This document shows positions 13,221 to 14,768 of a stretch of 64,000 nt of DNA, one piece after another. Under the pieces are notes generated by a model. That model saw only the letters and a list, made by a program, of their open reading frames with translations. It was not told the origin of the DNA and did no database searches. A program made the translations under genes and the position numbers. The stretch's first letter is position 1. Every line of letters begins with the position of its first letter. Source of the DNA: an uncultured Anaerolineae bacterium (GTDB lineage Bacteria; Chloroflexota; Anaerolineae; Anaerolineales; Villigracilaceae); NCBI GenBank assembly GCA_903838415.1, contig CAILYI010000272.1:1-64000 (forward strand), in the 5' to 3' direction.

Positions 13221-13302
13221 TGCTATGTCTTCTTCCCTCACTCAATACCCTTTTTAGATATGCTATACTGAGTAAATCCATTTTACAAATACAGGAGGAA
13301 TA

Positions 13303-13890
13303 ATGGCTACTCCAACCCCTTCCCAAACCAACGACAGCGTGCCACACGTCCCGTCGGTTCCGGCTGCCAAAGTCAATTATCCGCGTTTGTTGCCGCGTCA
13401 ATTTGCCTCAATCCCGCCCGAAGAATATATCGCCGAACGGGTGAACGATTCAATTGCATGGTACGATAAAAGCGCCAACAAATCGAAGGAAAATTACCTG
13501 CGCACGAGGGCGGCAACCGTGATTGGCGGTGCGCTTGTACCGGTGCTGGTCAACATCAACATCCCCTACATCAACATCTTGACGACCATTATCAGTTTGA
13601 TTGTCGTTTTACTGGTTTCGCTCGAAAGTGTCTATCATTTCCGCGAGCAATGGACAAATTATCGCTCGACTGAACAATTTTTACGAAACGAATATTTCTT
13701 GTTCACCAGCCAGGGCGGAGTTTACGCCGCGCTCGACCCCAAAGAAGCCTACAAACATTTTGTGGATCGAGTCGAAGAAGTCATCCTTTCAGAGAATGCT
13801 TCCACGCTTAAGATTTTGACATCGGTTTCGGAGACTAGAACCGAAACAAAAACAACCACCAAAACTCCCCGCATTAAGGTTACCAAATAA
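13303..13890 (+). CDS. DUF4231/SLATT-domain two-helix membrane protein
   Basis: A 195-residue protein with a disordered Pro/Ser N-terminus of about 30 residues. It continues with the segment ERVNDSIAWYDKSANKSKENY, two adjacent hydrophobic helices (about residues 68-105, split by INIPYINI), and a conserved tail HFREQWTNYRSTEQFLRNEYFLF...GGVYAALD. This is the pattern of DUF4231, part of the SLATT superfamily (SMODS/SLOG-associating 2TM effectors), predicted to form pores or disturb membranes in nucleotide-signalled bacterial defence. A strong ribosome-binding site (AGGAGGAATA) and a TATACT hexamer at 13264-13269 precede it. The partner gene starts two bases after its stop. The C-terminus is Thr/Lys-rich. 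No CD-NTase or SLOG gene is adjacent, so the partner may supply the sensor or enzyme. Confidence 0.8.
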   Translation: MATPTPSQTNDSVPHVPSVPAAKVNYPRLLPRQFASIPPEEYIAERVNDSIAWYDKSANKSKENYLRTRAATVIGGALVPVLVNINIPYINILTTIISLIVVLLVSLESVYHFREQWTNYRSTEQFLRNEYFLFTSQGGVYAALDPKEAYKHFVDRVEEVILSENASTLKILTSVSETRTETKTTTKTPRIKVTK

Positions 13891-13892
13891 TC

Positions 13893-14393
13893 ATGCCGAT
13901 TGATGTCTTTTTGAGCGTGGGGCGCACCTCCACCCCCAAGCAGGAAGAATTTGTCAAAGAAGTCCAGGCCATGTTGCGCGCCCAGGGCCTGAATCCGCGA
14001 ACGGTTGGACGCACAGACTTTACATCGGAGAAACCGCTCAAAACCATCCTGGAAGTCATGCAGAGCTGCCAGGGAACCGTCGTGATCGCTTTTGAACGGC
14101 TGCATATCGAACATGGGACAGAGTTGGCGGGCGGAGCAAACGCCTCCGTTTTGGAGAGCGTCAGCCTGCCGACGGTTTGGAATCAAATCGAAGCCGCCAT
14201 GGCCTATGCCCTTGGACATCCGTTGCTGGCGATTGCCGAATCCCGCTTGCGTGATGAAGGCTTTCTGGAAAAAGGTTATGACTGGTTCGTGGAATGGGTC
14301 GATTTGGATATATCCAGCTTAACCGAGCGTAATTTTGCCGAATCGATCAAAGCCTGGAAAAAGCGCATGGAAGCCCCGGCGCACAAAAAATAG
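13893..14393 (+). CDS. TIR/nucleoside deoxyribosyltransferase-like protein paired with SLATT
   Basis: A 166-residue soluble protein. Visible secondary-structure pattern: strand IDVFLSVGRTS, helix KQEEFVKEVQAMLRAQG, strand LNPRTVG, helix PLKTILEVMQSC, strand GTVVIAFER, then QIEAAMAYALGHPLLAIAE. The first half resembles the opening of TIR and deoxyribosyltransferase-like Rossmannoid domains. The E-A-A-M-A-Y-A-L-G-H-P segment resembles the place where such enzymes carry their catalytic Glu before a small helix (compare E.GYA.A.GKP). A role as an NAD- or nucleotide-cleaving or sensing partner of the SLATT protein is inferred from this and from the two-base spacing between the genes. I do not know a named family for it, and homologs with tested activity cannot be claimed from sequence alone. 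Confidence 0.55.
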   Translation: MPIDVFLSVGRTSTPKQEEFVKEVQAMLRAQGLNPRTVGRTDFTSEKPLKTILEVMQSCQGTVVIAFERLHIEHGTELAGGANASVLESVSLPTVWNQIEAAMAYALGHPLLAIAESRLRDEGFLEKGYDWFVEWVDLDISSLTERNFAESIKAWKKRMEAPAHKK

Positions 14394-14429: not shown

Positions 14430-14768
14430 ATGAGTTCCAATTCCCGCACCGTCTGGTCATCCGAACAGGGTGACCTTCGCAATCAACAACCAAAATCGAC
14501 AGGGACGAGCACCTCCTTGCCGCCCGGACAGCAAACTGTCTACCTGCACCGCGAGTCCAAGGGGCGCGGCGGAAAGGGAGTGACGCTCTTGAAGGGCTTG
14601 ATTCTCTCCGAAGCGGATCTGACTGCCCTGGCGAAAACTGTCAAACAAGCCTCCGGCAGCGGCGGTACCCTGAAAGAAGGCGTGATCGAAATTCAGGGTG
14701 ACCAGCGCGAGAAAATTGCAGAGACACTGAAAAAACTCGGCTACAAGGTCAAGCTGGCGGGCGGATAG
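14430..14768 (+). CDS. yciH: SUI1/YciH-family translation factor-like protein
   Basis: A 112-residue protein. The first 45 residues are polar and variable (RTVWSSEQGDLR...). The rest is the SUI1/eIF1 fold: VYLHRESKGRGGKGVTLLKGL, SGGTLKEGVIEIQGDQ and KIAETLKKLGYKVKLAGG, which match bacterial YciH. The family binds the small ribosomal subunit and can affect start-codon selection; its exact bacterial role is not settled. It follows the TIR-like gene by 36 bases on the same strand and may be co-transcribed with it, ending at the strong terminator just downstream. Length is typical (about 105-115). Confidence 0.92.
   Translation: MSSNSRTVWSSEQGDLRNQQPKSTGTSTSLPPGQQTVYLHRESKGRGGKGVTLLKGLILSEADLTALAKTVKQASGSGGTLKEGVIEIQGDQREKIAETLKKLGYKVKLAGG

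Follow-up and report, generated by a model that had tools for sequence, protein, structure and literature searches.

SLATT proteins are employed with many different signal producers, and their role as pore-forming or permeability effectors is a prediction (PMC9503650, PMC7159879). In CBASS and Pycsar, membrane effectors with two transmembrane helices (2TM), SLATT proteins among them, are tied to nucleotide signalling, and the operon includes a CD-NTase or a pyrimidine cyclase. In Thoeris, a two-gene operon combines the TIR protein ThsB, which produces the signal, with the effector ThsA; in the type II variety of this system, the effector is a TM-macro protein that is activated by His-ADPR and perturbs the membrane (PMC12847820). 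The association of a SLATT with a TIR protein has been described for Javan281 and SN10, and the phage SLATT has been predicted to function as a membrane effector regulated by an ADPr derivative (PMC9503650).

In a stretch of 64,000 nucleotides from an uncultured bacterium of the class Anaerolineae, phylum Chloroflexota (contig CAILYI010000272.1; hereafter, the window), a SLATT gene is immediately followed by the gene for a 166-aa protein of an unnamed family (Table 1). Like Thoeris, this pair appears to combine a TIR-fold protein with an effector in a two-gene operon, but the partner is not ThsB by sequence and the effector would be the SLATT; ThsA in any of its forms (SIR2-SLOG, TM-macro or caspase-like) is absent beside the pair, where the neighbours are the SLATT, a SUI1 gene and a saccharopine-dehydrogenase-like gene. 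With CBASS and Pycsar the pair shares a 2TM membrane protein of a kind that is tied to nucleotide signalling, and one homologue of the 166-aa protein is fused to the CAP12/Pycsar-effector TIR (CAP12-PCTIR, PF10137, 4.9e-26; L055:278-1294), but neither a CD-NTase nor a pyrimidine cyclase is found among the immediate neighbours in the window.

The phage pairs of SLATT and TIR (Staphylococcus phages X2, SN8 and SN10, Javan199 and Enterococcus phage IME197; PMC9503650) have in common with the window pair the order of the genes, SLATT first and the TIR-fold gene second, as well as their tight spacing (overlapping or a few bases apart), the DUF4231 domain and a Glu-bearing TIR-fold partner. The partner in the phages is, however, a recognizable ThsB_TIR (PF08937), whereas that in the window represents an unnamed family without detectable similarity, and the phage pairs belong to temperate phages whereas the window pair is located on a bacterial chromosome, outside of a prophage. 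In temperate phages and satellites of staphylococci, streptococci and enterococci, a ThsB-type TIR directly follows the DUF4231 SLATT in all inspected cases, and most of these cassettes (L074-L080) lie between the repressor and the integrase. In IME197, the cassette has as its neighbour a gene annotated for abortive infection resistance. An earlier note on this DNA took the pair to be a unit that is absent from the well-known systems, which holds for the TIR-fold family used here, unnamed as it is, and does not hold for the pairing of SLATT with TIR, already published (PMC9503650) and found again here in phages of Firmicutes. What is new is the TIR-fold family with which SLATT is paired; the SLATT-TIR pairing itself is known.

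Table 1. Positions of the SLATT-containing gene pair and its elements in the window
Feature	Position	Strand	Basis
Shine-Dalgarno AGGAGG, 4 bases 5' of the first ATG	13293..13298	+	direct reading
SLATT (DUF4231) two-helix membrane protein, 195 aa	13303..13890	+	Pfam and NCBIfam profile matches, hydropathy
Predicted TIR/DrHyd-fold protein, 166 aa, unnamed family, without transmembrane tail	13893..14393	+	AF2 model, Foldseek, 32 homologues
Codons W96-N97-Q98-I99-E100, candidate active-site motif (Glu100, 14190-14192)	14178..14192	+	homologue conservation

The gene pair and its recurrence

The two ORFs, the short gap between them and the strong ribosome-binding site on which the earlier note built were all found in the DNA, with 2 bases separating the SLATT stop codon from the start codon of the second gene (TAA-tc-ATG). 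The first ORF is a bona fide SLATT/DUF4231 protein, in agreement with its initial identification as a two-helix SLATT: over the 2TM core, the product matches the Pfam profiles DUF4231 (PF14015, 9.2e-23) and SLATT_1 (4.1e-8) and, above the cut-off, the NCBIfam profile SLATT_1 (NF033634, 2.4e-29), and its hydropathy plot has a hydrophobic stretch, at about residues 68-114, that is compatible with two close helices. The pair is surrounded by housekeeping genes (saccharopine-dehydrogenase-like, SUI1, PEPCK and RF2). Given these neighbours and the absence of the 166-aa protein from phage records, location of the pair in a prophage or a defence island was ruled out. The SUI1/YciH-like translation factor gene just 3' of the pair (window positions 14430-14768) is probably unrelated to it.

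Of 396 genomes that represent the class, 9 encode a DUF4231-like SLATT and 5 a member of the 166-aa family; only two genomes encompass both genes, which are adjacent in each. The second pair, and with it the recurrence in another genome that the note had asked for, belongs to another genus of the same family (genome G196), with the genes in the same order, 68% identity between the SLATTs and 59% between the partners, and a partner protein that likewise lacks a transmembrane (TM) tail. The two known pairs occupy different genomic sites. In G196, the pair is lodged between the genes for a MoxR ATPase and a zinc-ribbon membrane protein, which directly adjoin in a congener (G290), with neither the SLATT nor the partner between them; this site devoid of both genes indicates that the two were gained or lost together, as a unit. 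For the window locus, congeners do not preserve the order of the flanking genes around the saccharopine-dehydrogenase-like and SUI1 genes. No signal producer adjoins the pair in either genome.

A search for DUF4231 in 39 homologue-bearing genomes recovered the adjacent arrangement only in the window genome (G000) and G196, and none of the 8 further DUF4231-like genes of the class has a 166-aa partner beside it. One of these 8 genes (L071) adjoins a gene that looks SLOG/LSDAT-like by eye. The pair is a real, recurring two-gene cassette; in its exact form, it is limited to two genomes of one family, in both of which it is found in ordinary surroundings rather than in defence islands.

Fold and conserved motifs of the 166-aa protein

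The 166-aa protein has no sequence match in Pfam, NCBIfam, PADLOC, PHROG or PDB. Specifically, the Pfam profiles TIR, TIR_2 and ThsB_TIR match neither this protein nor any of 27 members of its family, there is no match to the NDT/DNPH1 family profiles of Pfam or NCBIfam or to ThsB by the PADLOC profile, and searching the PDB sequences with the protein and with the family profile yielded nothing useful. One of the 27 family members shows a weak match to DUF4062 (4.8e-5).

The AlphaFold2 model that was built from a 27-sequence alignment is of high quality (pLDDT 92.4, pTM 0.87); a poor single-sequence model (pLDDT 60) was set aside. The predicted structure is a Rossmannoid three-layer fold. Its best Foldseek matches in the PDB include a TIR (7fcc), TIR-STING and SARM1 and also DNPH1 (8rps_B, TM 0.59/0.73), NDT (8rh3, 8pqt, 6evs) and CMP N-glycosidase, and the viral matches include phage NDTs and a CAP12/Pycsar TIR. 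Matches to lysine decarboxylase were discounted as reflecting a common Rossmann-like sub-domain. The initial guess of a TIR/NDT-like fold, made from the letters of the sequence, is thus borne out by the fold search, and judging by the model, the protein belongs to the TIR/deoxyribosyltransferase/DNPH1 fold group. TM-scores are 0.5-0.6 relative to the length of the query and reach 0.73 relative to that of the target, so that the predicted fold class is clear, yet the family is distant from all matches. Comparison of the 166-aa family with the phage ThsB-type TIRs using hhalign gave a probability of 0.9%, that is, no sequence similarity, so that the kinship with these TIRs is one of fold (TM about 0.5-0.6). 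The DrHyd/NDT and DNPH1-type N-glycosidases share with the 166-aa protein the fold and a Glu that opens the helix ahead of an A-x-A-x-G-x-P stretch, but the 166-aa protein differs from them in an additional beta hairpin at 68-93, conflict-system partners and the lack of an NDT profile match.

Scanning of genome contigs detected 32 homologues (34-52% identity) in Proteobacteria, Cyanobacteria, Bacteroidota, Acidobacteriota, Actinobacteria and Chloroflexota, and additional copies were picked up in whole genomes, in a viral contig and on two plasmids, one of these haloarchaeal. Among the relatives are Ktedonobacteria loci, of the same phylum as the window's genome, and the Promineifilum locus L007 (genome G683), of the same class, which agrees with a place of that genome in Chloroflexota. 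This widespread family is unnamed in Pfam, NCBIfam, PADLOC and PHROGs. Five residues (F6, S8, G61, E100 and P110) never vary among the 42 homologues compared, and W96 and N97 are kept in 41 of them. The motifs that had been singled out in the window protein, FLSVG, GTVVIAFER and QIEAAMAYALGHP, turned out to be the most conserved parts of the family, and their conservation, as judged from the homologous sequences, is well beyond chance. The catalytic Glu of TIR domains sits in a W-x-x-x-E motif, for example, E642 of SARM1 and WCxxE of plant TIRs. W-N-Q-I-E (W96-E100) is spaced like this TIR catalytic motif. Judged by conservation, E100 appears to be the Glu at the catalytic position of the TIR-DrHyd-SLOG fold clade; Glu100 is a candidate catalytic residue that could, instead, bind a ligand.

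Membrane partners and fusions across the family

A C-terminal hydrophobic TM helix, missing from the window protein, is present in 25 of the 32 genome homologues, as counted by a hydropathy threshold (L009 falls just below it), with a consensus around L-K-P-x-Q-L-W-S-x-L...G-A-F-A-L-G. The fetched flanks of the tailed homologues contain no SLATT or 8xMP genes; overall, such a partner is found nearby in 4 of 16 tail-less as against 0 of 26 tailed homologues (Fisher p=0.016, relatedness ignored). The TM-tailed homologues appear to work as single genes, so that a separate SLATT seems to be dispensable for the job of this family. The widespread, unannotated single-gene form, a TIR/DrHyd-fold domain with a single C-terminal TM helix (L003, L004, L005, L052 and other loci of L002-L033), is found in ordinary chromosomal surroundings.

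Other members come with a variety of domains and neighbours. Two Chloroflexota homologues are fused to EAD7, a domain by which conflict systems recruit effectors (PMC7159879). In Ktedonobacteria (L031:5294-8664, also L032), an operon consists of an 8xMP gene, the TIR-like gene, whose start codon overlaps by four bases, a second 8xMP gene and a multi-TM-NUDIX fusion, and resembles a larger nucleotide-linked membrane system. On the Halorubrum plasmid pHLAC01 (L072:1757-5280), the homologue of the 166-aa protein is clustered with 8xMP and ThsB_TIR, with another ThsB_TIR that bears a TM segment and with a nucleotidyl cyclase. Two Anaerolineae genomes have a tail-less homologue between their mutS and mutL genes (L053:3950-4453 and L054:4772-5275), and in the second of these a K+ channel/TrkA-N-like gene, assigned by eye, follows as well. 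In the tree of the domain, the SLATT-paired, EAD7 and 8xMP forms each comprise a separate group, with uncertain deep branches, which suggests that the membrane and effector partners were acquired more than once.

Candidate function of the pair

On balance, the pair probably represents one cassette, a Thoeris-like, nucleotide-linked abortive infection module with SLATT as the effector. This reading is supported by the combination of the TIR/NDT/DNPH1 fold, the invariant Glu, the recurrence as a unit, the repeated membrane and conflict-system context and the analogous SLATT-TIR pairs of temperate phages; the cassette looks like a relative of phage-triggered cell suicide modules and is a candidate for a role in defence. 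Weighing against it are the restriction of the exact pair to two genomes of one family, the tailed homologues that seem to do without a SLATT, the lack of sequence similarity to the ThsB-type TIRs and a possible ligand-binding role of Glu100. Catalysis, the substrate, the infection trigger, the mode of gating, the pore activity and the anti-phage function, as we infer them, would fit together as follows. The 166-aa protein most likely would sense infection and, via Glu100, would break the N-glycosidic bond of NAD+ or of another nucleotide; the product of this cleavage, or else direct contact with the activated 166-aa protein, would gate the SLATT, which would oligomerise and make the inner membrane permeable, and the cell would thereby die or stall before phage release. 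For membrane perturbation driven by a TIR, type II Thoeris provides a precedent (PMC12847820).

The tailed single-gene homologues indicate that this family can function at the membrane with no separate partner, and therefore, direct gating and an effector held by an anchor stay as rivals. Under the latter explanation, which we consider unlikely, the TIR-fold protein itself kills by depleting NAD+ or another nucleotide, and the SLATT is a membrane anchor or sensor rather than a pore, the TM tail doing the same in cis; the 25 of 32 homologues with a TM helix of their own and no partner gene, the EAD7 fusions and the fact that bacterial TIRs can be NADase effectors (PMC12847820) are all compatible with such an arrangement. 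The SLATT, however, has two helices and is a predicted permeability effector with many other signal producers, and a separate, co-mobile 2TM protein is unnecessary if all that is needed is an anchor. It is also conceivable, albeit improbable, that the 166-aa protein lacks catalytic activity and acts as a nucleotide receptor, opening the SLATT when it binds a signal that originates elsewhere in the cell (a host TIR or a cyclase might be its source), in which case the pair would be a stand-alone unit of receptor and pore. SLOG/TIR-fold receptors are known in the same TIR-DrHyd-SLOG fold clade (PMC9503650), and the two TIRs and the cyclase next to the Halorubrum homologue, as well as the other TIR fused to L055, are possible catalytic partners; a receptor is, however, hard to reconcile with the invariance of the Glu at the catalytic position even in highly divergent members, and no signal producer is encoded next to the pair in the window or in G196.

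The housekeeping surroundings of the window locus, together with the fact that DNPH1 and NDT, both among the best fold matches, are enzymes of the nucleotide pool, might point to a pair involved in nucleotide salvage, in housekeeping or stress response, and unconnected with phage defence. Such a role is very unlikely given the sporadic distribution (5 of 396 class genomes) and the gain or loss as a unit, and the fusions to EAD7 and CAP12-PCTIR and the SLATT-TIR analogues in phages are not salvage contexts.

Beyond the abortive infection module that we favour for this pair, the 166-aa family as a whole is possibly, and we suggest this only tentatively, a widespread and hitherto undescribed branch of immune enzymes with the TIR/DrHyd fold that would signal at the membrane through a TM helix in cis, through SLATT, or through 8xMP and NUDIX. 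One and the same domain is found in several settings, with a TM helix of its own, beside a 2TM partner, together with EAD7 and in fusion with another TIR, and the orphan SLATT/DUF4231 membrane proteins gain a new family of TIR-fold partners. The cassette is small, fold-confident, Glu-invariant and easily expressed, and so it opens the way to a direct test of the nucleotide-gated pore that SLATT has long been predicted to form. If the proposed role of the family is true, it would amount to a new class of single-gene and two-gene defence systems that act at the membrane, possibly with a nucleotide product of their own.
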